Source of the DNA: Nymphaea colorata
Taxonomy: Eukaryota > Streptophyta > Magnoliopsida > Nymphaeales > Nymphaeaceae
Assembly: GCF_008831285.2 (NCBI RefSeq)
Contig: NC_045146.1
Span: 19,833,149-19,897,148, forward strand
Reading direction: 5' to 3'
Length of the DNA stretch: 64,000 nt
Below, piece after piece: positions 631 to 35,800 of the stretch. Both the position numbers and the translations under genes were made by a program. The notes below the pieces were generated by a model. It was not told the origin of the DNA. It saw only the letters and a list, made by a program, of their open reading frames with translations, and ran no database searches. How positions within the stretch are numbered: position 1 is the stretch's first letter; the number at the start of each line of letters is the position of its first letter.

Positions 631-1193
631 TCCAGCCGCCTCCTCCTCAGCGCGTCGTCGCTGATTGAGCGGCGCCAGCCGCTGCCTGATCACGACCGTC
701 GTTGCTCTTCCGCCCGTCGCTCGTGTCCGCCCATCTCCGCCCGTCACCCGCCGCTTGCATCGTTGCTTCTCCGTCCGTCGCCGCCTGCCCACGACCGTCA
801 TCGCCCGTCGCCGTCTGATCGCGTCTCCACGCAGCATCGCCCGCCGCTGCCTGCTCGCGTTTCGCAGCATCTCCGCCCGTTGCTGCCATCTTCGCCCGTC
901 GTTTCTGCCTGCTTCGCTGCTACCCTGCACCATCGCTGCTCCGCTGCTGCTTCCCACCACTGCTTCGCTGTCGTCTCTGGTATCTCTCTTCGTTCTTCTT
1001 CGTCGGCTTGTGTCTGATCAGCGTTGTCAGCTTTGTTATTACCTCCTCTTCCAGCCGATCAGACTTATGGATTACTTCGTGCGTTTGACTGCTATTGTTC
1101 GATGATCAGCATGTTGTCTTTACATATGTGACTATATTCCTTGTTGCCTGCACTTCTTATTCTGTGGCTCGGTGTCCTCCTTTGTGTTGAAAG

Positions 1194-2228
1194 ATGTCTG
1201 AAATTAGCAGTGGAGCTAATACCTCTTCCTTTGCATCGTCGAGAGAGATGAAGAGTTCCCCATTTTCCAGCATTATCACCAAAATGGATGGGGGAAATTA
1301 CGAGATGTGGGCCATGCAAGTAAAAAGAACCTTGATCGCTCATGAGAAGGAACATCTCATATTGGAGCCCGAGCCTGTACAGAAGGTAGGAAAATATACT
1401 ACTTGGTTTAAAGATAATTCGTTGGTTATGGTATGGATTGTTGGTACTCTTTCTCACGACATTGCAAATGAAGTCTTGCATAAGGAAAGTGCAAAGGATA
1501 TGTGGGATTCCCTTGCAGCCACCTATTCCCAAGCAAGGAATGAAACAAGAATTATGCAACTTCATCATGATATTCATCAGATGCGACAAGATGGTCGACC
1601 TCTTCATACTTATTATTCTAGTCTCAAGTCCATGTTTGAGAGACTAAATAGCTACTTTCCTGCATGTAAGTGTGAACAACAAAAGGCATATAGAGATATG
1701 CTTATGGTAGGTGTATTTCTTTCTGGATTAGACTCTGTTTATGAATCAGCAAAGAATCAGATGCTCACTAGTCCCTCGATTCCTCCTATTGATGAGGCTT
1801 ATAGTAGGCTAAGCAGAATTCCAATCCCTGCGTCGACTGTTCTTGATACCACTTCTGCTATGCTTGCTACTCGTGGCAGAGGTGGGTCCTTCTTTGCCAG
1901 AGGACGAGGATACCGTGGTCGTGGCAATACCACTTCTCGCCAGTATGTCAGTTTTGTCATCGCATTGGTCACACTGTGGATAAGTGTTGGCAGAAACATG
2001 GTCGTCCAGCTGTTGCAAATCAGACTGTATTTACTGATCCTCCAGAGCAGCCTAAAACTCAGCATACTGTTTCCTCCAGTGAGATACGTGCAGATGATAT
2101 TATCTCTCAGTTGAGAAACTTGATTGGTGATAGAACTCAACAAGCACCTGATCCGACCACCTCTACTATCACTACTGCTGCCAGTGCGTCTTCATCTGGT
2201 ATGTATTCTGACTATACTCCTGCTACTG
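1194..2228 (+). pseudogene. copia-1 gag (capsid and nucleocapsid), frame-shifted
   Basis: The ATG at 1194 opens a reading frame whose first 240 or so residues are a typical copia Gag (UBN2-type), ending in an Arg/Gly-rich stretch near 1880-1930. The CCHC zinc knuckle (C-X2-C-X4-H-X4-C), which packages RNA, begins at 1946 but lies in a different frame. The Gag frame instead runs on in a meaningless reading to a stop at 2112-2114. The shift falls between about 1930 and 1945. The displaced frame continues to about 2228, where the protease returns to the original frame. The leader 619-1193 is GC-rich and I see no protein in it. Confidence 0.85.
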
Positions 2229-5200
2229 ACAGATTGGCTCATCGATTCGGGTGCATCGACACATCTCTGTGGAGACAAGGCCCAGTTTACTTCTTATGTC
2301 CCTACTCCACCTGGTCGCTCGGTTATTCTAGCAGATGGCAAATATTCTCCAGTTGTTGGACATGGAGAGGTCCAACTTACTTCATCATTGCCGTTGCAAC
2401 ATGTTCTTCATGCACCAGAATTCCCACATAGCCTACTGTCTATCAGTCAGATTACCAGAGATTTAAACTGTCGTGCGATATTTGACTCCTCTTCTCTTGT
2501 GTTTCAGGATATACTGACGGGCAGGGTGATTGGCTGTGGCCGTGAACATGGAGGTCTTTACAGGCTAGTGCATCCCTTTCCTTTTGCTGGGTCTACCTCT
2601 TCAGGGTCATCCTCATCCTCGGCTTATACTTGGCATTTACGTTTTGGACATCTACCGTTTCAGAAATTGCTGCATGTTCTTCCTCAGCTGTCTCCTAAGT
2701 CTTCTTTTCAATGTGAGTCTTGTCAGTTGGGCAAACACCATCGGTCATCCTTTCCTCCGCGGCCCAGTAGAAGTAGCCAGTCTGTGTTTGAGTTACTTCA
2801 TTTTGATGTTTGGGGCCCGAGTCGTACACCTGATCTTCAAGGTCATCGATATTATCTTGTTGCTGTCGATGACCATAGTCGTGTTAGTTGGGTTTTTCTT
2901 ATGAAGAATAAATCTGAAGTGGGTCATGTAATCAAAAATTTTATCAATGAAATTCTGACTCAGTTTGATACTTGTGTCAAAATTGTGCGCTCTGACAATG
3001 CTCTTGAGTTCTGTGCTTCCTCTTTAGAACAATTTTTCAGGGATAAGGGTATCATCCACCAAACCTCTTGTGCCTATACCTCCCAACAAAATGGGGTTGC
3101 TGAAAGGAAACACCGTCATATTCTTGATGTTGCCAGAACCATTATCATACATAGCCATGTTCCTCATTCCTACTGGGGAGATGCTGTTCTCACAGCATGC
3201 TATCTTATTAATCGTATGCCGTCATCTGTGTTGGGAGACCTTATTCCTATCTCTGTCCTCTTTCCTGACAGAGACTTGTTTTCTGTTCCACCTCGTGTTT
3301 TTGGATGTGTTGCCTTTGTTCAGTTGCTTGGTCCTGGGAGAGATAAGTTGTCTCCTCGGGCCATCAAAATGATCTTTGTTGGTTATTCCCGCACTCAAAA
3401 GGGATATCGATGTTATGATCCTTCTACTCGTCGATATTATGTGAGTGCTGATGTTACATTCTTTGAGTCAACCTCTTTCTTCTCCCCAAATGGAACTCAA
3501 TTAAGGGCGCCTGAAGTGAATGATGAAGTCCATTTTCCTCTACCTCTCATGAGTTGTCCAAAACCAGTTGATTCACGCTTTGGGGCTGTCTACCAACGTC
3601 GTACTAAACCTGTTGCGCCTGCTCACTGTGCACCTGTGCCTTCACCCAACACGCCCAAGGTCATTCCTGACACAAACTCTGCTGACAATTTTTTATGTAA
3701 TGATGACATAGGAGAATGTCACGAGCAGGTTCATGCTCCTAATGAACTTGATATGCCCATTGCTCAAAGGAAAGGCAAACGCAGTTGCACTTTGCATCCT
3801 ATCTCTGGTCACTTATCCATGGATAGACTCACTCCTATGTACCGACAGTTTGTCAAGGGGCTGTCGGCTATTGCTCTTCCACAGAATCCCATGGATGCTC
3901 TCTCTGATCCAAAATGGGTTGCAGCTATGCAAGAAGAGATGGATGCTCTTCAGTCTAGAGGCACCTGGACCCTTGTTACTCCTTCAGCTGATGCCGCCAT
4001 TGTTGATTGCAGATGGGTCTTTACTATCAAATACAGAGCGGATGGCAGCCTTGACAGATATAAGGCTCGTCTGGTTGCTAAAGGCTATACCCAAACTTAT
4101 GGGGTTGATTATTATGATACCTTCTCTCCTGTGGCACGACATGCTTCTTTACGGATTCTCCTTACTGTGGCTGTCAGCAAGAATTGGTCCTTATCACAGC
4201 TTGATGTCAAAAATGCCTTTCTCTATGGTGACTTACATGAAAAAGTGTATATGCAGCAACCACCAGGGTTTGTTGCTGAGGGGGAGTGTCAGAAAGTGTG
4301 CAGATTGCGAAAGGCGATTTATGGTCTGAAACAGAGTCCTCGAGCTTCGTTTCAGAAATTGTCAGAGAATATTGAGAATGAGGGCTTTAGACGTTCTTCG
4401 GTCGATCATTCCCTCTTTGTCAAGAAGACTTCTACAGGTACGGTGATAGTTCTTGTCTATGTTGATGATATCATTGTTACAGGGGATGATGATCAGGGGA
4501 TTTCCAACATCAAGGATGTCCTTGGACAACACTTTGTCACCAAAGACCTTGGTGAACTACGTTATTTCCTCGGTATTGAGTTTGCCAGAAATCGAAAGGG
4601 TCTTATCATGTGCCAGAGGAAATACGTTACTGATGTTTTGCAAGAGATAGGGATGCTGGGGTGTCGACCTGCATCCACGCCTATGGATATCAATACCCGC
4701 TTATATGATGATGATACTGAAGATGTTGATGCGAAACAGTATAGAGGGATTGTTGGGAAGCTCCTATACATCACTGTTACTCGACCTGAAATTGCATATG
4801 CTGTTAGCAGAGTGAGTCAATTTATGGATAAGCCCAAGAAAGTTCATTGGGATGCTGCTATGATGATTCTTAGGTATCTAAAGAATTCACCAGGAACGGG
4901 ACTCTTCTTTCAGAATGGTACCTCACTCACTATATCTGTGTATGTTGATGCCGACTATGCGGGATGCCCCTCAGACAGAAAATCCACCACTAGATTTTGT
5001 GTGTTTATTGGATCCAACTTGGTTACATGGAAGAGTAAAAAGCAAACTGTGGTTGCCAGATCAAGTGCAGAATCTGAGTATAGAGCTATGGCTCAGGGTA
5101 CTGCTGAAGTTATGTGGGTTAGATCCCTGATGGTGGATCTTACTGTCGAAGTGCCTCTTCCTATGCAATTGTTATGTGATAACAAAGTTGCACTGTTTAT

Positions 5201-5411
5201 TGCTAATAATCCGGCTTTTCATGAAAGAACCAAGCATGTTGAAGTAGATTGTCACTACACCAGAGACATGATTCAAAAGGGGTTTGTAAGTACCTCACAC
5301 ATTTCAACTACAGGGCAAACGGCTGATATCTTTACTAAGGCTCTTGCAAGGGGACCATTCCAAAGCTGCTGTTCCAAGTTGAGCCTATTTGACATATACG
5401 CTCCAACTTGA
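2226..5411 (+). CDS. copia-1 pol: protease, integrase, RT, RNase H
   Basis: One open frame carries all Pol domains. The aspartic protease active site DSGAST starts at 2244. The GAG-pre-integrase zinc-binding region (H-H-C-C type, ending CESCQLGKH) lies near 2635-2745. The integrase has its Asp-rich catalytic positions (FDVWGP, RSDNA) and QNGVAERKHR near 3087. The reverse transcriptase carries the KARLVAKG and [10 protein letters not shown] motifs and the catalytic YVDD at 4458-4469. RNase H shows DADYAGC, SSAESEYRAM and the closing DNK...RTKHVEVD region. The stop codon is at 5409-5411, just before the polypurine tract. No internal stop is seen. In related elements this frame is fused to gag; here the junction is broken near 2228, and a nominal upstream ATG at 2124 is not homologous. 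Confidence 0.92.
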   Translation: MTDWLIDSGASTHLCGDKAQFTSYVPTPPGRSVILADGKYSPVVGHGEVQLTSSLPLQHVLHAPEFPHSLLSISQITRDLNCRAIFDSSSLVFQDILTGRVIGCGREHGGLYRLVHPFPFAGSTSSGSSSSSAYTWHLRFGHLPFQKLLHVLPQLSPKSSFQCESCQLGKHHRSSFPPRPSRSSQSVFELLHFDVWGPSRTPDLQGHRYYLVAVDDHSRVSWVFLMKNKSEVGHVIKNFINEILTQFDTCVKIVRSDNALEFCASSLEQFFRDKGIIHQTSCAYTSQQNGVAERKHRHILDVARTIIIHSHVPHSYWGDAVLTACYLINRMPSSVLGDLIPISVLFPDRDLFSVPPRVFGCVAFVQLLGPGRDKLSPRAIKMIFVGYSRTQKGYRCYDPSTRRYYVSADVTFFESTSFFSPNGTQLRAPEVNDEVHFPLPLMSCPKPVDSRFGAVYQRRTKPVAPAHCAPVPSPNTPKVIPDTNSADNFLCNDDIGECHEQVHAPNELDMPIAQRKGKRSCTLHPISGHLSMDRLTPMYRQFVKGLSAIALPQNPMDALSDPKWVAAMQEEMDALQSRGTWTLVTPSADAAIVDCRWVFTIKYRADGSLDRYKARLVAKGYTQTYGVDYYDTFSPVARHASLRILLTVAVSKNWSLSQLDVKNAFLYGDLHEKVYMQQPPGFVAEGECQKVCRLRKAIYGLKQSPRASFQKLSENIENEGFRRSSVDHSLFVKKTSTGTVIVLVYVDDIIVTGDDDQGISNIKDVLGQHFVTKDLGELRYFLGIEFARNRKGLIMCQRKYVTDVLQEIGMLGCRPASTPMDINTRLYDDDTEDVDAKQYRGIVGKLLYITVTRPEIAYAVSRVSQFMDKPKKVHWDAAMMILRYLKNSPGTGLFFQNGTSLTISVYVDADYAGCPSDRKSTTRFCVFIGSNLVTWKSKKQTVVARSSAESEYRAMAQGTAEVMWVRSLMVDLTVEVPLPMQLLCDNKVALFIANNPAFHERTKHVEVDCHYTRDMIQKGFVSTSHISTTGQTADIFTKALARGPFQSCCSKLSLFDIYAPT

Positions 5412-20800: not shown

Positions 20801-23800
20801 AATATGGGACTAAACTTCTTAAAGTGGGCGTTTCAATCCACCCTCTTTAAGACACACGCGTCTGCGCGTATGGGGCCCCAAGTCTGAGTGTTGAACCTTG
20901 CTCTGGTACCACTATAACGATCCAACCCATACCAGGCTCGGATCCCTGGTGCAACAGATTTCAACTCACCCCCTAGTAGTTTTCGTTTCAGTCTGAAAAA
21001 GGCTGGAAACTAGGACAACAAACCACTTAAGAACCCCCTTCATAAGACTTTGAAGATCTTTCACAAACTTCAATATGGAGCTAAATTTCTTTAAGTGGGC
21101 CATTACATGGTCAATTCAGCTAGCTTAATATTGTTATGTTCTTTTTTTTTTGGATAAATTCAAAATATATTAAACTAAGAAAAAAATTTATAAATAATTG
21201 AAAATGATGTATGACACTGATTCAATTCAGATAATTCAGGCAGCTGATATTTACAATGCTAACCACAAAATTTATTTAGGAAAACAAAAGTTAAAAGGAT
21301 CCTGTTAAATGGTTGCCAAGGGTTAGATGATGACATTATAATACCATATGCAATTGAAAGGCCCTTAGCAGAGCAATTTCTCCTAAATGACAGGTGTTTA
21401 TCATAAATATTTGAAAAGTGAGAAAACTATGATTGATGCTTGGATGTGCATGTGTGTCCACGTAAATCTGCACAGATGGTCTTCTCTCTCTCTTTTTCTC
21501 TCTGTTCTTTCTTATTTTCCAAGGTTCATTGAGTTTTAAATTTTCATTGCAGGGCATATGTGTTTTTCAGTTCACCAGTTTCAAAAGATTTTGTTTCTAA
21601 CATAAAGAATGATACAAGTGTTTTGCCTCGCATTGGTGCTCTAAGAGAGGTGATTGTTGATGCACTATTTGGTCTAAGAAGCAATTTTCTGGATGTTGTT
21701 GGTGAAGCTATTTTAAGTGAAATGTTGTCATATTTCACCTAGATTCTTAACTTGTTAGTTTCTCGTATTCTCTGATTTTCATGAATTTGATCTTGGGGGC
21801 AGCTTATTTTTCGTGCAATTCATGTGGCAGTAATATAGTTCTTGTTTAAATTTTGCAGATGAACTTAGAATACTTTCCTATAGATAATCTGGTAAATATC
21901 TTTCTTCTCTATCTTATTTTTAGAATATGTTTGATTGTCCTGAACTATCATGTACTGTGCAGTGCATGAGGCCCTTCTGTGCAAATGGTGGACAGAATGC
22001 AAGACTTCCAAAAACCTGTGATTTGTTGTTTCGCCTTTGCATGGACAACCCATTGCATGAGATGCAAATGTGGCTCATGGGCAGGCCACATTGTGCGCTC
22101 CTATTCCTAGAAATCTAGTAACAGGGCATCCTGTTCCTGATGTTCCAGGAACAGGACTTAAACATACCTTTAGTTGATATACTTGTCCAAGTTTTTCCCA
22201 AGCATCACATTCTAGGCTTTGTTCCTTATAACCAGGATGTTGTTTCTCATATATTCTCTAGAGTTGTAGGCACTTGGTATATTTGTGAATGGGGCGGACT
22301 CAAGTTAAATGTGGGATTGTTGTAACTTAATTGGATATTTGGTTGACTATTCTCTGCAAACTTCTCCTGTACATTTTTAGATTTTCTTAGGATAATTATC
22401 CTTTGCAGGGGTATATTACTGATAATGAATGGGCACTTGAGGTGCTTTTTGGAGAGAATTTGGAGGCTTCTCGTAAGTTCGATGTCTTCCTCACCGCAAT
22501 GGCCATTCGTGTTGCTACAGTATTTGCTTCCATGAAGGTGATATTAATCAATTGGCATGCTAAACTTTTGCCCTGATATTTCCTTTTGCTTATTTATCTT
22601 GAAGATTCTTTCTACCAGTGCTATTAATTGAACATGACTTCTGTGTTCTGGGCGTCAAATTTTTGGTGATGAATATGAATTTTTCATTCTGAAATTTTAA
22701 TTAGAGACTTTGTAGAAAATTTAGTTCATTAAGCATGTTCACAGATAATATTATTGTTTGTTTCCTTTGGCTCGAATGGTTGTTGTAGAAGGTCTTCATT
22801 TTTTCTAGAAAGCAAAAAAGGAGAAAAACAATCCCCTATATTAGGATGATTAGTCAGCTCCAAATGCTTTTTCCACAGGCAAAAATGCCCCGTTTGATGG
22901 CAGGGAAGAATTTAACGTGGTAAATTTATCATGAAAAAAAATGCTAGAAAAAAATACAGGATGAAATTTTTCCCTCTTCCAATCTGAGGCCCTGTTTGAT
23001 GACAGGGTAGTTTTTTGCATGGTAAATTCAACCCTGTTTGTTGCGCAAGGTAGATTTTTGCAGGGTAAAATTAACCCTGTTTGATGCACATGGTAAAATA
23101 TATGAGAGACTTTTTTTAGAACCGTTAGTAGTTGTTGTAAATTAACGACATTTCAACAAAACTTCCCCAAATTCATTGAAAGCCTTGGCTGATAAAGACC
23201 AAAGATATCAGATCTATGAACATACTAATCATGAATTAAAAAACATCATTAAGTAGTTGGTTTTGTATGAATACCAAACGCTGACCAAAATCCAGCACAA
23301 AACCTTTATAAAATTGATGACAGAATCTTGCAAACATACGAAATAAACTCAGTTAAACTTTCAAAACTAGAAGCTGCAATCGTGTGTAATTCTTGTCATT
23401 GAGCCACCACTAAGCTGTTGCTCACCAACAACAAGAGAAGGAACAAAGTTTGGTATCCCTCTACTTTCTCTGCCATTCTTCCCTACCCTACCAGTTCTGT
23501 TTTACCTGCACCCCTCAGTAGTACCTAAAACCATCTCTCACTCTATCTCTCTCTCAACCTAAGGCCACGTTTGATGGCCAGCAAAAATACTGTTCATCGA
23601 GGGTTTTTTTTCTTTTTTGTACGGTTTCAACCGATTTCAACGAGCGCCATCAAACGGGGCGAAAATCCCCCTGCTCAAAACTCGTTTCCAGGGTAAATTT
23701 ACCCTGGAAAAAAGTCGGACCCTCACGGGTCCGACTTTTTTTTGGAGATAATTTTTTTGCCCGTTAGGGCTTCTTCCAGCGCTCCTCTCCCTCGCCACCG

Positions 23801-26800
23801 CTTCCACACAGGCAAATGTCGCCCTTCGCTGCTGCCGAAGCTCTTGCCTCTTGCCTGCCGACCCATCACTGTCGTCGCCACTAGTCGGTGCTGCCTCTGC
23901 CCTCCCCTAAAATTTCCCTCCCCTGATTCAATGGTTCCTTGACTGCTTGCGGCTGCTGCTGCCATCGCCACTCGCTGGCGTTGTCGCCACCACCGTCGCC
24001 CTTCACTGCTCAGCTGAGGGGATCCAACGTTTGCTTTTCTGATGTAACTGAATTGAGTGCTCTTCAGAGATCTCTGGAGGGCTTGGACACCAGAATCGAT
24101 GTAGTCGTCTCGTGCTTTGCCAGCCGATCTGGTGGTGTTAAGGACTCCTGGAAGATCGACTATGAAGCGACCAAAAATAGTCTCGTTGCGGGTAAAAAAT
24201 TCGGGGCTGTTCATTTTGTTCTGTTGCCTGCAATATGTGTTCAGAAGCCCCTCATTGAATTTCAAAGAGCGAAGCTGAAGTTTGAGGCAGAATTGCAGCA
24301 GGAAGCAGAAAATGGGGATTTCACCTACAGCATTGTGAGGCCGACGGCTTTCTTCATGAGTTTAGGTGGGCAGGTTGAGTTGGTAAAGGATGGGAAGCCA
24401 TATGTAATGTTCGGAGATGGCAAACTATGCGCCTGTAAACCCATCAGCGAAGAGGATTTGGCCTCTTTCATTGCTGACTGCATCTCTTGTGAAGATAAAA
24501 TTAACAAGATTCTCCCAATTGGTGGACCAGGAATGGCATTAACACCACTTGAGCAGGGAGAATTGTTGTTCAAACTTTTGGGCAAGGAACCCAAGTTTCT
24601 GAAAGTTCCAATAGGAATGATGAACTTTGTAATCGGCATTTGATTTTTTGGTTAAATTCTTCCTTTCTCTGGGAGATGCTGCAGAATTTGGAAAAATTGG
24701 AAGGTATTATGCTGCAGAAAGTATGTTGCTGCTTAACCCAGAAGATGAATGAATAAGCAGGATGTTTGGGTTTCAAATTTTTTCATGAAAAAATTTTCTT
24801 GTCTATCAAACTATGCATTTTTTACCCATCAAAAAAATTCCAGACTATCAAACATGGCATGAAACAAGAAAAAGGAAAATTTACCCCCTTTTCAATTTAC
24901 CGTGGAGATTTTTTCTTGAAAAAATTCTCCTTCAAAAAAATCCAGGCCATCAAACGTGGCCTAAGTGATAGCAATCACTAGCAAAGTGGTTATGATGGAG
25001 ATAGAAGCTAGGATTGTAGGGTTTTATGCAAGAAGAATGATTTGCAAAAGGAAGCCACACAAACCTCTCCCCCTTCTTTCTCTCTCTCTCTCTCCGGCTC
25101 TTTCCCTCACTTGACCTCCACAGTAGCAATGGCCATCAGACTAAGTGGAGCAGCTAAGCTGGAAGCTGAATGAGACTAAGTGGTATGATCTCTTGGAAGG
25201 GATTCAGAGAAAGACATTCTCAGTGAAATCCTTTCCCTTTCCTCTCCTGCAACACAATGGACATCGGTGGGGAAGGGAATGTGGAAAGGCCGCTTTGATA
25301 AAAGCGAGAGGAACTTTCTTCCAAAAAGAAAAAGAAGAGTGAGAGCCGACGCTCTGCTCTCGAGCTCCGGAGTGCAAGCAGAATATGTTAATCAAATTAA
25401 AGGGAAAACCGACCATCAGAAAGAAAAAGGGAAGCAACTCATCGTCTACTATGTTTACTACTCCATAAAGGGAATTTATTACAACATTTATGTTCGAAGG
25501 ATCTGTAAAAGCTTCAGATGAAATGGTTCTGTTAAGTACCGTAAAACATTTTCGCACCTTCAAGCTAAATTGCAGCTGAACCGAAACCTAAATACTCTTC
25601 TGCCATGCCCAAAACAAAAACCAAAAAAGAAAAAACAACACATAGATTTGATCGACGCCAAAACCAACATCTGATTGCATAAACGCTACGACAGAAACAA
25701 ACAAAAATGCCAAAATCAGGGAGATTGACAATGGAACAACAACAGAAGGAAGAGAGAGGGGGGGGGAGGACTTGGCTGTTGGGAAGCTGCTCTAAGGCGG
25801 AGGTGCCCTGCTACCTAGTCTTGCCGAGTGAACAACAAAAAAAAGAGCAACACAGAGAGAGAGAGTGAGCGTGATGCAGCGAGAGAGGAGAGGAGAAGAA
25901 GGGCGTTGACTGGGAAAAGGGGGAAAAAATTGAGAGCCCTAACGGTTCTCAATTTTGTCTCCGCGAAAAAGTCTGACCTCAACAGGTCAGACTTTTTTCC
26001 GCGTGAAATTTCACCCGATCATACGAGTTTTTTGGGTGAAATTTCACGGTGTTTGATTCGTCATGAGATGAACGGGTGAAAGTTTACCCGCCTGTACCGT
26101 TTTCAACCGATGCACAAGATTTTTCCTGTGCATCAAATGGCCTAAATAATCAAAAGGTCAATCTTGGGGCTCCTAGCTAATTTCTTTGGCCAGGTCTCAG
26201 TCCTAGTGTTTCCAGACCAACCATTGATCCTCCTTTTGGCCCTTTAGAACAAGGTTAAGACTGTATCCTCAGGTATTTGACGTATAAGATTTGGTTAATG
26301 ATGCAGAAGCCATGAGAAAACAACTCACTAACAAGGACATCGAGTTCTTTTCCCCTTAAGATGGGGGTGAGCCCTGAGGCTCCAAATCACCAAGCCTTGA
26401 AAGAACCATTATCACTAATATCAATGCTTTATAAAATGAGAACAAATGGGAAAATGAAAAAGAAAAAAAAGGAAAAAAAGAAAAAGTGAACAAATTCCAA
26501 AATTTTGAAGAAAAGTGCCAAAATGAAAATGGTTGTGCTTTCTTTGCCGTTTTTCACTTTTCTAGAAAATCAGGCTTTAATATATTTTGATCTTTTGATG
26601 CTTCTTTACAATTTTCATAGTTAACTTGAATTTTATCAATTATCTTTGTAAGAAAATTAGTAGAAAACTCAATTTTTCATGGCTTTCTATTATTTGTTAT
26701 ATTTTTCAATTTTTTTGAATTCCTTAAAGAAAGTCCCCTCAATCCATATTAGGAAAAATCCTCACTGATATAAACTTATCAACAATATTTGTAAAAATGA

Positions 26801-29800
26801 TGAGAACAAAGACATCAAGCTATTGTATGTCTTCAAAAGATGAAGGTTGTTTTGCCTGATGCGATTAAAAGATCATTAGGGCTAACTTTGCACATTGGTA
26901 TCACCCTTAACTATGGTGTTACACCATTCCACCACTAGGTTGACTAATGTTGTGAGCTACTTTGGTTCTCAATTAAGACTACCACTGACCACTAGCCAAG
27001 GTTCCATGCTTCTTTTTAAGGGCTTTCACCTCTGGCTGTCTTACTCCCCCTGATGTCCGGAGAATGTCTGCATGGGCGGTAGGCCTCCAACCTTTATTTC
27101 AAGAAATGAGATTATAATTACATATGTACATTTCCAAAAAATTGGGAACCGAATGGTCTCTATTCTAGACTGATAGGCTCCTCGAAAAGGTTCCAAGTCC
27201 CTTCCTGAACATTCCAAAATTTACTTAACAAGTTCCCTGAAAAACCGTGAATAAGATGTAAAACCTCTGGGGCTGGCCAACCTTTTGAAATCTGAAGATC
27301 AATAGCTCGCCTTGCTCCTCCTGATGTCACATTGGGCTAGATTTTCTTTTTTAGCAAAGCTGGAGGGTTTCCCTTGCCTTTCCTTTCTCCCTCCATCAAA
27401 TCGTGTTTTGAAGGTGAGAATGCACAACCTCAGTTGATCAAAGGATATCAGTGACCAACCAATGGCAGACAGAAGCCAAGGGAGCATGGATGTTACTCAA
27501 TCTAAGGATTGTGTTGTGTATAGGGAGGAGGTGTTGATGACTTGGATTGTGTGAAGGGGAAAAACCAGGTACCCTTTGCAGGCCCTTTTTTGCTTCTGGT
27601 AATGTTAAATCCTGGTCCAGCAGAGGAAGGAAAATTTGCCTCCAATTTACGTAGAAAAAGGATACAAACACCACCTGGTCATCCCAGCTGTAATGTAGCA
27701 TGGAATGTTAAAAAGTCCCTGGTAGGGGCTTTGGCTACAAATAGAAACACTAAAGGCTTGGGATATACTTTTATCCTTTCCTTCCTTTGGAAGCTACGGT
27801 CACATCTTCCAAGCATCTTGTTTTTTGGTTTGTCAAAGGATTATTTCTAATCGATGCCATAGTAAAGAGATCATGAAGGTGATTATGCAGCAGAATAGGT
27901 GGAGCCGTGGAGGGTCTCAGCTTGGGGTTCTTCCAACTTCTAGATGGGAATTGAGTTACATGGTTGGTCTAGAGGTTGTCCTTGGAGCTTGTTGGAAAAT
28001 AAGTTTTAATCGTGTAGAAACACACACCAAGATGGAGAGAAAGAGAAGGAACACACAATATACGTGGAAAACCTCAAAGAGAGGTGAAAAACCACGGAGA
28101 AGCTCTAACCTAGGTGCACAACCGCAACCCTAGGAGAGAGAAAATATTATTCCACTTAATCAACTATTACACTATAAGTGGGATTAAATGAGAGGGAAAA
28201 ACGCCTAGGGTACCGAGCCACTATCGGTACCCGTGCCCATGGGACCGGGTCTGGATCCAGACCCGGTTCCCTACACAAGATATGTTAACACTCCCCCTCA
28301 AGCTTGGCATACATGTCAAACATGCCTAGCTTGCTTACATTTTTCTCGAATTGAGATGTACATAAGGCTTTGGTTAGAACATCTGCAATTTGATCTTCAG
28401 ACTTCATATAAGGTAGGATCAACTCCTTTGAATTTATGCGTTCCCGTATGAAGTGGCGATCAATCTCCACATGTTTAGTTCTGTCATGCAAAACGGGATT
28501 ATTCGCAAGATTAATTGCAGACTTGTTGTCGCAGTACATCCTCATCTTCTCTTCTGTTTCAACACCAATATCTGCTAGGAGAATCTTTAACCATAACATT
28601 TCTGTAACTCCCATAGCCACAGCCCTGTATTCAGCCTCAGCACTGGATCTAGAGCAAACTTCCTGCCTCTTACTTCTCCATACAACCAGGTTACCTCCCA
28701 GAAAGATGCAGTACCCTGTGGTAGACCTCCTAGTATCAGTACATCCGGCCCAATCTGCGTCAGAGTATCCTTCAATATTAAGTTGGTCTTGCTGAGTATA
28801 GAGTAATCCTTTTCCTGGGTCATTCTTTAGGTACCCCAACACTCTTTCTGCACTCTTCCAGTGACAATCAGTAGGAGCATGCATAAACTGACTCAACACA
28901 TTCACAGCATAAGTAATATCAGGGCGAGTAAGAGTAAGATAGATAAGCTTACCAACCAGCCTCTGATACCGCCCTTTTCCTTCCTCATCTAGGATGTTGT
29001 CAGTTTTGATGCTTATCTTTGTACCAGACTCCATTGGAGTTTGAAAGGGTCTGCATCCAAGTTTGCCTGTCTCCTTTAGAAGATCCAGAGTGTATTTCCT
29101 TTGGCTCATAACCAGCCCTGTCTCTGACCGAGCAATCTCTATCCCCAGAAAGTACCTTAGTTTACCCAATTCTTTAAGATCAAATTCAGCAGCTAACCTC
29201 TCCTTCATCTTCTTTTTCTCTTCTTCATCTCATATCATCAACATACACAAGAAGAAGACTCACCAGGCCATCTCTCTGCTTAATGAATAGGGTGTGATCA
29301 CCATTTCCCTGTTTGTATCCATTTGTCTTTAATCCATACAAGGCTTTCTTAAGATGACAGCATTTTCCGCTTTGAACATATCCAGGAGGCATACTCATAT
29401 AGACCTCTTCTTCTAGATTGCCATTCAAGAATGCGTTCTTAACATCAAGTTGATCCATGCTCCACCCCTTTTTCACGGCAAGTGCTAATATGACCCTCAC
29501 AGTTTTCAGTTTGGCAACAGGGGCAAAGGTTTCAAGATAATCAATACCATATTTCTGGCTGAACCCCTTTGCAACAAGCCGAGCCTTATACCTTTCCACA
29601 GTACCATCTGGTTTGTACTTCACATTGAACACCCACTTTGAACCAACTAAATGAATCCCTTTGGGAATATCCACAACTTCCCAAGTGTCATTCTTTGCAA
29701 AGGCATTCATCTCCTCTGTCATGGCCTGTAGCCATTTAGGATCCTCTTTAGCATCTTCCACACACCTGGGAATAACAGACTTAGACAATGATGTTATAAA

Positions 29801-32800
29801 GCATTTGTAATTCTTACTCAATTTCGCATAAGAGACAAATCTCTGAATAGGATGAGAAGTGCAAGACCTGGTGCTCTTGCGCAGGGCTATAGGAAGCTCT
29901 TCATTGATTAGACTTGGGTCATCCGGGGAGCTCACAGGATTGGGATTGGTTACATCAACATTTTCAATCACATCTGTCTTCTTCCTTCTGTACATCTGGC
30001 CAAACAAATGATCACGGGCTGTAGGCTGATTATCAACAAGACCCTCGTCCATGTGACGGTCTCTATCATCTCTGACTGTGTCTGCCACACTGTCACTGGC
30101 CTTGTAATCCAAGAAATCCGTAAACTGAATCAACTGATTTGAGGAATACTCTTCACTACTGTGTCCTAGATACTCCCCCTGAAGAGGATTCACATGAAAG
30201 TATGCCTCATGTTCATGGAAGGTGACGTCCCGGGAAACATAGACTTTAGAGGTGGTAGGATCAACACATTTGTATCCCTTTTGAGTGGAGGAATACCCCA
30301 GGAAGACAGCCTTGACAGACCGAGGATCAAGTTTCTTGAGGGTGGGACTATGGTCATGAACAAAACAGACACACCCGAACACCCGAGGAGTAAGAGGCCA
30401 GGGATTCTGAGTAGGCCAAAGCATAGAGTACGGGGAATGGCCCTGCAACACACGGGTAGGCATACGGTTGATAAGGTGGGCACTAGTGAGAAGCGCATCA
30501 CCCCAGTAGCGCTTGGGAACCTGTCGATGGAACAGAAGAGCCCGGGTAACATCAAGCAAATGGCGATTCTTCTGTTCAGCCACGCCATTTTGGGGAGGTG
30601 TGTAACTACATGACGTTTCATGGACAATACCCTTGCTCTTCAAGAAATCATCTAGGGATTGAGAGACATACTCTCTAGCATTATCGGTGCGAAAAGCTTG
30701 GACAGACGTCTGAAACTGAGTCTCAACAAAGGCCACAAAATTTTTGACAATAACGGGAACTTCACTACGTTCTTTCAACAGATACACGAACGTACAACGG
30801 GAGTAATCATCAATAAGGGTCATAAAGTAATGAAAACCACGACAAGTGGGTACTCCCGAAGGACCCCAAACATCAGAATGAACCAAAGCAAATGGACGAG
30901 TGGTTTTATTGAATGAAATAGGGTACGAGGCCCTAACATGTTTAGCCAACTGACACACTTCACAGGTGAAGGAGTCCATGGAAACAGAATGAAACAAACT
31001 AGGAAACAACTTCTTAATCAATGGAAACGGAAGATGACCAAGCCGCTCGTGCCATCGCATAATAGTAGATCTGTCTTCCATGCCTGACAACTGTCCACTA
31101 GTGGCTGAAATAAGAGCGGACGCAACCTGCACAGGCAGTCTGTAGAGTCCATCAATAGCCGAACCAATCCCAATCTTCTGCCCCGTCACCAAGTCCTGCA
31201 GAAAACACCGATCAGCAGAAAAGATCATATTACAGTTGAGCTCTTTAGTAATACTACTGACAGATAACAAATTCACAGGAATATTGGGAACATGAAGAGC
31301 ATTATGAAGACAGTATTTATTTAACAAGGACAAACTCCCTTTTCCAGCCACAGAGATAGAAGAACCATCAGCCATAGATACACGTTGCTGCCCCGAAGAC
31401 AATTTGTATTCTTGGAACATCTTAGGGTCCCCTGTCATATGATGCGTAGCACCACTGTCAACAATCCAATCACCATGTGAGGAATTACCTTGGTCACTAG
31501 TGGCCACGAGAGCTTGGGCTAACTTGGCCCCCTCAGACGTGGAAGTATCCTCCTGAGTAGTAGACAGCCGGCTGATATACGCTTGCAGTTCTTTGATTTG
31601 ATCGGAGGAAAGCTTAGATTTGGCAACATTTGAAGGACTACTCTGACTAGGCTCAGGCACAGAAGGACTCCGGCGGCTAGAAGGAGGACGACCCCGGACA
31701 AGCCGCCTCTCAGGATGAAGATCCCAACAAAAATCAACAGAATGTCCAGATTTGTTGCAATGGCTACACCGCCGAACAGGACGCTGTCCAATCCCAGAAG
31801 CACGACTAACAAAGGCTGAAGGAGAACTCCCCTGACTGTTGTCAATATGCATCACCTGTCGACGCTGTTCCTCAGATTCCACACGGGCATACACCTCTTC
31901 AATTCCGGGGACCTCGTCACAATTGAGAATTTGGCTCCTAATGGATTCAAATTCATCGCGTAAGCCTCCGAGGAAAAGAAACGTCTGATCCATCCATTCT
32001 TTGTCCCAGTACAAGGCATGATCAGACCCACAGTGCCAGTCATCATTCACATGGTAGTCAAGTTCCTCCCACTTAGTCTTTAGGGCTGCAAAGAAAGCGG
32101 CTACAGACAAGTCACCCTGTTTAAGAGAGTATATGCTACGTTTGATTTGGTACGTACGCAATACTCTCTTCTTACGGCCATACATCCGTGCAAGCACAGT
32201 CCACATGTCGTAGGCAGTCGATTTACGCAAAATCAAAGGCTGAATATCTGCAGAAACAGAACTAATAATCCATACTTTAACCTGACTATCTTCCAACGTC
32301 CAAGTAGCCCATCGCGGATCGGTTTTTGAAGGTGCAGGCTTCTCCCCAGTAATGTAGGGTAGGCGACCACGACTGGTTATCCCAATTTCTAGGGCAGCCG
32401 ACCAAGAGAGATAGTTATCCTTGTTCAGCCGGATGGAGGTGACTTGAACAGGCAAGATCTCGCTCTTGGTATTGCTGCCCGAGTCTAGGGCATCATCGAT
32501 CTTGAGGGACATCTCCTCGGCCATCACAATCACCAAGGGAAAAGAATACCCAGCACCAGAGACGACAAACAAGAGGCAGCGGCCGGCGCAGGACGGCGGC
32601 GGTGGACAGCGAACGCAGTAGAGAACAACCGCGCTGGACGATGGCGGCACAGCTGGCAGCGCTGGACGGCGGCGGCGCAGCAGAGAGCGACGGCGCAGCA
32701 GCGGCAGAGAAAAAAAAACCGGCGAAAACAGCAGCGGCAAAAAACGGCGGAAACACGACTATCACACCAACGATCTCTCACGCGTTGGCTCTGATACCAT

Positions 32801-35800
32801 GTAGAAACACACACCAAGATGGAGAGAAAGAGAAGGAACACACAATATACGTGGAAAACCTCAAAGAGAGGTGAAAAACTACGGAGAAGCTCTAACCTAG
32901 GTGCACAACCGCAACCCTAGGAGAGAGAAAATATTATTCCACTTAATCAACTATTACACTATAAGTGGGATTAAATGAGAGGGAAAAACGCCTAGGGTAC
33001 CGAGCCACTATCGGTACCCGTGCCCATGGGACCGGGTCTTGATCCAGACCCGGTTCCCTACACAAGATATGTTAACAAATCGGTTAGGTGGTTATTAGCA
33101 ATTTCTAGAAGTTAGTTATATTCTTATGTTTTTTTTATCATTTTTAGTTCAGGCCTTCTTTAATAATTTCTGTTTTAGTCCTGGACTGTTTTTGTAATCT
33201 TGTAGCTACTACCCAATCTCTTATAACGTGAGATTAGGGTTAATGTGAAATTAGATTTTCTGTCTCTCTCTCTCAGCCATTTTCAACATGGTATCAAAGC
33301 TGGTCCCTCCTGGATCTGCCTGATGCCGCCCCTCTCTTGCATCTTCTTCTCTTCCTCTTCCTCTTCCTCTTCATCTCTATTATTCTGTTCAAATCTGACC
33401 GTATGTCGGAGCATTCCCTAAGGGGCTATGACATGTGGGAGATAAGGGATCTATTCACTACTGATCACGTCACAGTGATGATTAGATGCCTAGATCTGGT
33501 CATTGTATGATCTGAAGATTGTCGATGATATGAAGATCATATTCAGTTGGGCGTGATGATGCTGCTGCTGTAGGAACGTCGCTGGAGTCAAGACAAACTG
33601 CTGTGATTTTTTTTTTTTCTTTGATATGATGGTCTGTGGATGACTGATTTGATGTCTTCTGAAGTTTATGCTATGGATGCTAGGGTTTGACGTCTTCTAT
33701 CTCTAGTAGTAATTTATGTGGTATAATTATGACATTGATGGCCTATTGACTGCACTGTTGATGGCTGATATTGGTGGTTCGTTGGCAGTTATGGTTGACG
33801 ATGATTTTTTCATATTCTTCTACTATGATATCAGATTAGAATCTCTGAGTTCTGTCTGCAGTCTGAAATTTTACATATCCTTTTAGCGTAATCGCCTTAG
33901 TTTGTGGTATTTCTTCTTGGATTTAGTGCAGCAAATTTTTTCTGTTTTTTTTGGGGGGGGAGGAGGGTGGAGGGGATGGTTTTGTTTAGCAGTTCTGTTT
34001 TATACTTCAAACTGAAAAGAATTCTGTATATTGGTGGTGATTTGGGACTACTTCTAGTTGCTTAATTACGTAGAATTGAGGTCTCTTTGGCTGTGTGGTT
34101 CTAATGGCTGCAAAGAAGAATGATGAAGTAGACCCGATCAAGATAAGAATGGTACACGGATTAATGTGGACTTCTATGGAAATGTGAATGAATTTTCAAG
34201 TTGTTTCATATTACAAAGACAAGCATTATGGTTCACTCTTTTTTAGAGCAGATCCTGGAAATGCACATTCTTACCCATCATGAAACACTATCATGAGATT
34301 CTTTTGGCAGTAGCTCCCAACATGCTGTTCTCAAGGTCTCATGCAGTTTGCAGCCCATCACTCTAGGCCCATTAGTGATGCTAGAGAGTGGGGATTTTCA
34401 TAGTTACTCTATTTGATTTTTTGAAATTTGGCTTCATTTCTCCCTAAAATGTAATAGCAATTTTCTTATCTTAGTCTTTTCTTATATATTTGTCACATTC
34501 TTATTCTGCTTCCTTTGATTTAAAAGGAACTTCCTCGTGTTCGCTATCGTGCGGCTAACTCATCAGCAGAAACGTCAACGACAGTTCGTGATCTAATTCC
34601 TACCAAGTTTGCCAATGCTCTGTGGAACTGCCTGGAGAAGTACAAGTCTAGCATTCCTCAGTTCCCCAAGTCAGAGACTTGTGAGTTGTTGATTGTTGAC
34701 AGATCGGTGGATCAGGTTCGATTTTTTACAGAAACCTTAAAATGGTAATTTATAAATCTGAAATTATTGGTTAAAATTATGCTTGTGCGAAATGCTTTTA
34801 TACTTGCAGATTGCACCGGTGATACATGAGTGGACCTATGACGCTATGTGCCATGATCTGTTAAACATGGATGGAAATAAATATGTATATGAGGTATGTC
34901 ATAACTATATACCATGCTTACAAAACACAGCCAATTGAACAAACGCAAGAGATGATCCAACGATATAGCACATTGTGGAGTAATGTAGGGAAAAGCAATG
35001 AAAGTTGAACACTGAAATATATAAACACACATACATTGAAATAACATAAAGCAGAAAAGTAAAACATGCATATTACATATCATAAATCTTGTAAGTTGTA
35101 GCAATGCTATTACAAGATTGGACATAGGCATTTAACAACTCATTGACAATAAGCAAGTCAAGTGAATTAATGATAATTAGTTTAAAAAATTGACTGTAAA
35201 TTCAAGGCCTTATCATGGTACATGATTAGTTAACAACTATAATTTCCTATTATTAGTAAATGATAAAACATTCCTAGCTTGACAGGTGCTACCAGTGAAA
35301 GAGGAAAAAGTGTAATGACTAAAAAAGAAAACAACACCAACTAAAAATTATAAAAAAGAAAAATAAGAAGGGGATCATAACAAAAAAAGACGAAAGGAAA
35401 AGAAAACAAAAAAGGTAAAGGGAAAAAAGAGTGAAGAAGTGAAACAAAATAAAGGTGACAAAAGAAGGGAGGTAAGAAGTTAAAATCAAATGGAAAAGGA
35501 CATTAGGGGGGCTTGGTGAACTGAAAGGAAAGAATGAGAGTGAAAAAGAAGAAGAAGAAGAGAAGGGCTTTTGACCACATTTTCTGTTGTAAAAGATAAA
35601 AAAAGGAAAAATTACGTACATGAGTTGGCCAAACCACACTGTATGAGTGCCTGTCAGCCAGTTGTTCTGGTTGGTCAGGACAACTAAGCCTAGGCAGCCA
35701 AGTTATTTTAGCTTATTAAGGAATTTATGTGTATACCTATGTGCTTTTGGCTGCATACTGGATTATAGTCTGATATGCTTTAATATAGGTAATGGCACAA

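Follow-up and report, generated by a model that had tools for sequence, protein, structure and literature searches.

The question raised by a stretch of 64,000 nucleotides of the water lily Nymphaea colorata (NCBI RefSeq assembly GCF_008831285.2, contig NC_045146.1, positions 19,833,149 to 19,897,148; hereafter the window) is how a piece of a gene, which we take to be DVR (divinyl chlorophyllide 8-vinyl reductase), came to lie between the inverted ends of a mobile element inside an intron of a Sec1-family gene. The element in question, W, occupies 1,399 bp of the window (23563–24961), and positions counted inside it are written as W n. It was followed through the whole assembly of 407,766,735 bases in 783 contigs, in which the contigs C1–C14 measure 12.6–44.0 Mb, the window is C9:19833149-19897148 and the loci fetched from the genome bear L numbers. 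W is almost certainly a non-autonomous PIF/Harbinger element, a Pack-PIF, that carries a captured piece of DVR. The best explanation of the locus as a whole, to which a probability of about 0.85 is given, is that such an element took up the piece, probably by template switching, and then spread with it.

The limits of W are fixed by a site that lacks it. The element begins and ends with perfect 17-bp terminal inverted repeats (TIRs; 23563–23579 on the forward strand and 24945–24961 on the reverse strand), and these are flanked by the two TAA copies of a target site duplication (23560–23562 and 24962–24964). Both flanks, searched separately, match one and the same place, C8:17.078 Mb (L047), which reads ...CTCTCAACCTAAGTGATAGC...: the flanks are joined by one TAA and the element is absent. 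The alignment of L047 with the joined flanks has 578 identical columns out of 661 and 51 gap columns, the two large gaps falling in CT repeats. Because this paralogous empty site joins the flanks with a single TAA, the limits and the target duplication, which an earlier note on this DNA had read from the window itself, are proven. The same note had seen nothing resembling a transposase between them, and this is upheld: Pfam gives only NAD_binding_10, in the open frame, and none of the PF13359 matches listed, 150 of 307 candidates having been scored, falls within the element.

The assignment to PIF/Harbinger holds as well. The pattern TWAGGCCACGTTTGATGGCC, that is TWA followed by the 17-bp terminus, up to 1 mismatch being allowed, is matched 105 times in the genome and its reversed control 0 times, which together with the empty site rules out terminal repeats produced by chance. 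A first set comprises eighteen elements (L019 and L020 are not among them), and matching duplications are present in 11 of the 12 that are readable at both ends, L013 being counted here with a 3′ terminus one base short; the six left out (L002, L003, L004, L007, L008 and L010) have an end that is broken, cut or masked. For the DVR copies the count is 3 of 3. A second set shows matching duplications in 15 of 16 elements, which were picked by the TWA pattern, so that there only a matching middle base carries information. Four elements of 5.8–7.7 kb (L021–L024) have the same termini, within 3 mismatches, enclosing a match to PF13359; Pfam identifies DDE_Tnp_4 in L021 (E-value 4.6e-15) and L022 (E 1.9e-16), and Myb_DNA-bind_3 in L021 (E 2e-15) and L024 (E 3.9e-15). 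A DDE transposase gene together with a Myb/SANT-like gene is the two-gene make-up expected of PIF/Harbinger. It is by the TWA duplications and by the termini shared with these DDE_Tnp_4- and Myb-encoding elements that W is assigned, and L021–L023 also share its last 187 bp (W 1213–1399) at 78–85%. The features of a Pack-TYPE element are all found in W: it has no transposase, its TIRs are intact, the host-gene piece inside it comes from a parent at another locus, and it is mobile as a unit. Ten long open frames of family relatives have no Pfam match, and most interiors in the family are unexplained; that of L013 is similar to other members of the family as well as to pieces at C6 and at C14.

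The captured coding piece lies at 24012–24742 on the forward strand (W 450–1180) and corresponds to parent residues ~233–477 of 517. Earlier put at about 740 bp, this coding sequence of the DVR-like gene measures 731 bp in W and 733 bp in the parent, from which W is separated by 18 substitutions in 731 positions and one 2-bp deletion. The parent, L006 on C5, is an uninterrupted stop-to-stop open frame of 517 codons and the only intact gene found; with 97.3% identity between the two over 733 columns, the proposed capture from an intact gene elsewhere stands. The genome search for further copies and for the intact gene gave nine candidates, all scored, and places the piece at eight sites, namely seven element copies (W, L001–L005 and L007) and L006, the dispersed pieces being up to 98.8% like the parent. 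When the DVR fragment is looked for in this genome without the element termini, the seven places other than W prove to be the six further family copies and the parent. The intact gene was likewise searched for the outside flanks of W: its surroundings (3.6 kb) share nothing with them beyond the captured piece, and the only matches are two of 15–17 bp at E 0.05–0.19. Neither of these two checks, run within this genome after the earlier note, refutes its reading. Bacterial relatives of L006 (three listed of 12 records, 51–53%) are named NAD(P)H-binding, its matches in NCBIfam are weak and below cut-off, and the gene neighbourhood in Rhodobacter gave no name for it. The nucleotide-binding motif GSTGYIG (parent residues ~191–197) is outside the captured piece.

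What stood in this place before DVR is seen in sister elements. The 5′ block of W (23563–24011, forward strand) is shared at 87% with L008 and L009, which lack DVR, match W to the right of the piece at 82–94% and have a different interior; this interior is also present in L045, a more distant relative. As this interior is common to L008, L009 and L045 and missing from the DVR copies, it is DVR that arrived later. In terms of L009, 733 bp of DVR are found where 460 bp of interior stood, and the piece adjoins W 449 and W 1177, both interior positions of one sister-element type. At the right junction the two sequences have a 4-bp microhomology, CAGA (24739–24742). The first ~214–242 bp of the 5′ block are common to most family members examined, and the last ~187 bp of the 3′ block (24739–24961, forward strand) are common to the family, autonomous-size members included. 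The GC-rich part of the 5′ block (W ~240–447) was not seen outside the family in the whole-element search, no separate search having been made for it.

The capture was followed by spread. All seven copies have in common, against the parent, the replacements S305P and E370K and a silent change at V341, and A237S, D238N and a further silent change, at S266, are common to the four copies that retain the 5′ part; because these changes are shared, one capture followed by dispersal is indicated. The copy nearest to the parent is L001, with 9 differences in 733 positions, and the split of L001 plus parent from the six others is the sole firm one in the tree (100/98, in a bootstrap that had not settled). 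L004, L005 and L007 all lack W 448–633 and show no difference from one another at 550 sites of the captured part. Between L004 and L005 there are 2 differences in 616 positions outside that part, and the near-identity of these two indicates that this derivative moved recently and was recently amplified. The seven copies are dispersed; the three that are readable at both ends have TAA duplications, and the other four have an end that is broken, cut or in an assembly gap. With a substitution rate of 6.5e-9 per site and year, which is not established for this plant, the distance between W and the parent would correspond to ~2–4 million years.

As to the route, which we infer from the anatomy of the element, the DVR piece would have been taken up by template switching during DNA repair or replication, a gap left after a break or an excision being filled with the DVR gene as ectopic template, and the interior of an L009-type element would have been lost in the same event that brought in the piece. 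The chimera, which is present at seven sites, among them the Sec1 intron, where TAA was duplicated, may then have been mobilised in trans by elements with the same termini and with genes for the DDE and Myb proteins. Template switching is the probable, though by no means certain, route, and it is preferred to joint mobilisation because one interior is seen to have been replaced by another, the joins inside the element are clean and no terminus is left behind at them. In joint mobilisation two family elements flanking the DVR piece would have moved as one and afterwards lost their inner ends, as has been proposed for Pack-PIF elements in maize (PMC8903248). Members of the present family do seem to nest, W lying inside an older relative, which would suit such an origin. 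However, the joins fall at interior positions 449 and 1177 of one sister type and exactly its 460 bp are gone; an inner terminus is present at neither join, where two separate deletions would have to end; and among the TWA-plus-terminus matches listed, none is on C5 within 4 Mb of 18.10 Mb. Joint mobilisation is therefore considered unlikely here. Still less can be said for an ordinary duplicated DVR pseudogene with termini that are due to chance or foreign: no support for it was found, it is refuted by the one-TAA empty site, and it is at odds with the parental flanks, which are not shared, and with seven dispersed copies that agree in their body and, as far as these are intact, in their ends, so that it is next to impossible.

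Capture from a spliced transcript, that is from complementary DNA (cDNA) instead of DNA, was first suspected from donor pieces which are adjacent in the element and apart in the genome. The DVR piece lies within one exon and is not decisive itself; the evidence comes from other host DNA in the same terminus family, where captures skip parts of the donor locus. In L031 (1,056 bp, TTA/TTA) two pieces of L040 are found, one of 123 bp with 98.4% identity and one of 376 bp with 94.4%; L040 is an open frame of 594 codons in which Pfam recognises an mTERF domain (E 1.4e-32). L028 and L029 (3.1 kb, TAA/TAA) contain pieces of C2:8.949-8.953 Mb (L039), 85–96% alike and in the order of the donor save for a partial duplication in L029; in the comparison of L028, L029, L039 and L043, a further stretch of L028, 803 bp long, resembles C7:6.460 Mb at 89%, and some of this stretch is presumably a copia reverse transcriptase. 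A 390-codon open frame in L039 has no Pfam match above cut-off, and no family terminus within 3 mismatches was found in L039 or L040. Against a transcript, inspection by eye shows GT-AG borders on neither strand for the skipped donor stretches (92, 347, 2960, 567, 122 and 899 bp), the 567 bp omitted by L031 lie inside the single open frame of the mTERF donor, and several joins of these other captures carry filler bases. Because the skipped stretches are without intron borders and the joins are with filler, the source was probably DNA, copied in pieces, and the spliced transcript, rejected on the missing intron borders, is an exceedingly improbable source.

Several observations weigh against a Pack-PIF formed by template switching, or at least do not help it. 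The left capture join has 0 bp of microhomology, and the 4-bp match at one of the two joins is only weakly unlikely by chance: in random joins of both sequences the probability of at least 4 bp is 0.018 per junction and 0.037 for one or other of the two. No direct progenitor turned up in this genome, only sisters that are 82–94% alike over the shared parts. Unequal duplications occur in L016 of the first set and in L035 (TTA/TAA) of the second. Finally, no library named L006, for which Pfam gives only general NAD(P)-binding families, NAD_binding_10 being the best.

Whether the captured piece does anything where it now lies is a separate matter. The stop-to-stop open frame in W (23927–24640, forward strand) has 238 codons, of which ~28 are element codons and the rest DVR codons. 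The 234 open codons reported in the earlier note are obtained when the count begins from a TTG at 23939; the first in-frame ATG, at codon 144, leaves 95 codons. The 2-bp deletion, which is unique to W among the seven copies, determines where the frame ends, and no function has to be invoked to account for the open frame. Compared with the parent, the copies show 40 distinct changes, any on the parent's own branch included, of which 28 are nonsynonymous, 12 synonymous and none a stop; omega is 0.70–0.98 for kappa 1–4 (p 0.35–1.0), and the chance of finding no stop is 0.18–0.34. Selection on the open frame was considered and is unsupported by these values. That selection maintains the piece as a functional part of a gene, either translated or spliced as an exon into the Sec1 transcript, might be suspected from the sense orientation of the piece in the intron and from the DVR frame, which is stop-free in all seven copies save for the deletion in W. 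However, the 28:12 ratio and the omega just given, the sizeable chance of finding no stop, the lack of an in-frame ATG upstream and the position of the nucleotide-binding motif outside the piece make a function of this kind very improbable. Judged from its sequence, the open frame looks inherited and not selected, and the fragment is probably without protein function and drifting. For chlorophyll synthesis and for the Sec1 gene nothing known changes unless transcription is shown.

Pack-PIF elements are already known. The earlier note held gene capture to be much less well known for PIF/Harbinger than for Mutator, Helitron and CACTA elements, which was too strong, since it is in print for grapevine (PMC2528002) and for rice and maize (PMC8903248). 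The Pack-PIF elements described in maize and rice resemble W in their PIF TIRs, their duplications (mostly TTA/TAA there), their foreign gene fragment and their presence in several copies, and maize cluster 18 likewise has sister elements without the fragment (there 163 bp at 97%) (PMC8903248). W differs from them in that its 731-bp piece replaces the 460 bp of interior and is not a plain insertion, in that donor, sister and empty site are all found in one assembly, and in that it comes from a water lily and not from a grass. Grapevine Pifvine-3 is also of the PIF family and has captured genomic sequence (exons and introns there) in several copies; unlike W, which has neither gene, it carries a long extra 5′ region beside its ORF1 and transposase regions (PMC2528002). 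Turmoil-1 of C. elegans holds gene fragments (the RRM of rsp-2, and cpg-3) in a DNA element, and the text on it uses the word Harbinger 8 times; its pieces are inside the inverted terminal repeats, in contrast to the position in mid-element in W (PMC2572040). The animal Pack-TIRs, for which gap filling and FoSTeST are described, combine a TIR element with a donor piece, show short microhomology at one or both joins and are chimeras multiplied by transposition, as W is; they are from animals and not from plants, and the word Harbinger is absent from the main text (PMC8277862).

The origin of gene capture by cut-and-paste elements is debated between template switching, as in PMC8277862, and joint mobilisation, the Pack-TYPE model of PMC8903248, which follows Catoni et al. 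2019. In the present case the capture can be followed at single-base resolution, as a replacement that joint mobilisation explains poorly. Among the open-licence papers listed, none reports that PIF/Harbinger elements have captured genes in Nymphaea or that DVR has been captured. The water lily, an early-branching flowering plant, is added to the plants with described PIF/Harbinger gene capture. What is fresh is the completeness of the case: a single genome preserves the sisters and a more distant relative, the donor, the chimera with its descendants, and the empty site.

The conserved 5′ block contains two adjacent near-perfect palindromes, a double hairpin, at 23680–23754 (W 118–192), with a DNA fold z of −7.45 against shuffles, and L021 and L022, both of autonomous size, match the stretch W 125–215 at 88–90%. 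With W set aside, 25 family members give 298 pairs that have a 5′ block in common, and this shared part ends at the equivalents of W 193–250 in 202 of them, below 193 in 45, at 251–350 in 21 and beyond 350 in 30; this pairwise test takes in L008–L036 apart from L019, L020, L024 and L025, and of the DVR copies W alone gives the numbering, the others being left out. Because 202 of the 298 pairs end at 193–250, the conserved end gives way abruptly to a variable interior just inside the palindrome. In a hand count against W itself, 23 of the 27 similarities of L010–L036 end in 204–242, these ends being set by W's own history. It could be supposed that the terminus family is a serial gene-capturing machine, in which the double palindrome stalls forks or breaks and interiors are swapped just inside it, and that the DVR pieces may feed small RNAs acting on chlorophyll synthesis. 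Such a role is distinctly doubtful: the DVR join, at 449, lies farther in, the pairs are not independent, and a need of transposition for the block would give the same border.

The host intron extends over 22538–34526 on the forward strand, with a donor GT at 22538 and the acceptor just before ~34527, both borders being set by eye. The joined exon translations match PF00995 (Sec1) at E 1.4e-57, and their best structure matches are syntaxin-binding proteins; a few short exons had given no identity for the host gene, and more exons did. The sense orientation of the piece in an intron of a trafficking gene, as described earlier, thus agrees with the translation and with Pfam, the exon borders at 22537 and ~34527 having been read by eye.

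Within this intron W seems to be enclosed by an older, decayed relative of the L024 kind, from the same family (22887–26142, limits approximate). A terminus-like sequence is found at 22887, with a second copy at 22988, and the right end, GCATCAAATGGCC followed by TAA, is at 26130–26142; no matching duplication was seen at the left end. Part of the interior of the relative (window 23397–25437 without W) matches L047, in which no family terminus was found within 4 mismatches and in which an open frame is presumably the start of a glucanase gene. Another part, window 23141–23399, matches L049, which also has a Myb-like transposon frame. The older element would itself have taken up C8 DNA, and that donor locus would now serve as the empty site of W. 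The stretch resembling window 23141–23399 is contiguous at C4:27.490 Mb and split by ~230 bp at C8:5.164 Mb and C3:25.692 Mb (L049, L050 and C3:25691472-25691959). Two copia-like retroelements with long open frames are also present in the window, one in the same Sec1 intron (28285–32758) and the other at 1191–5408.

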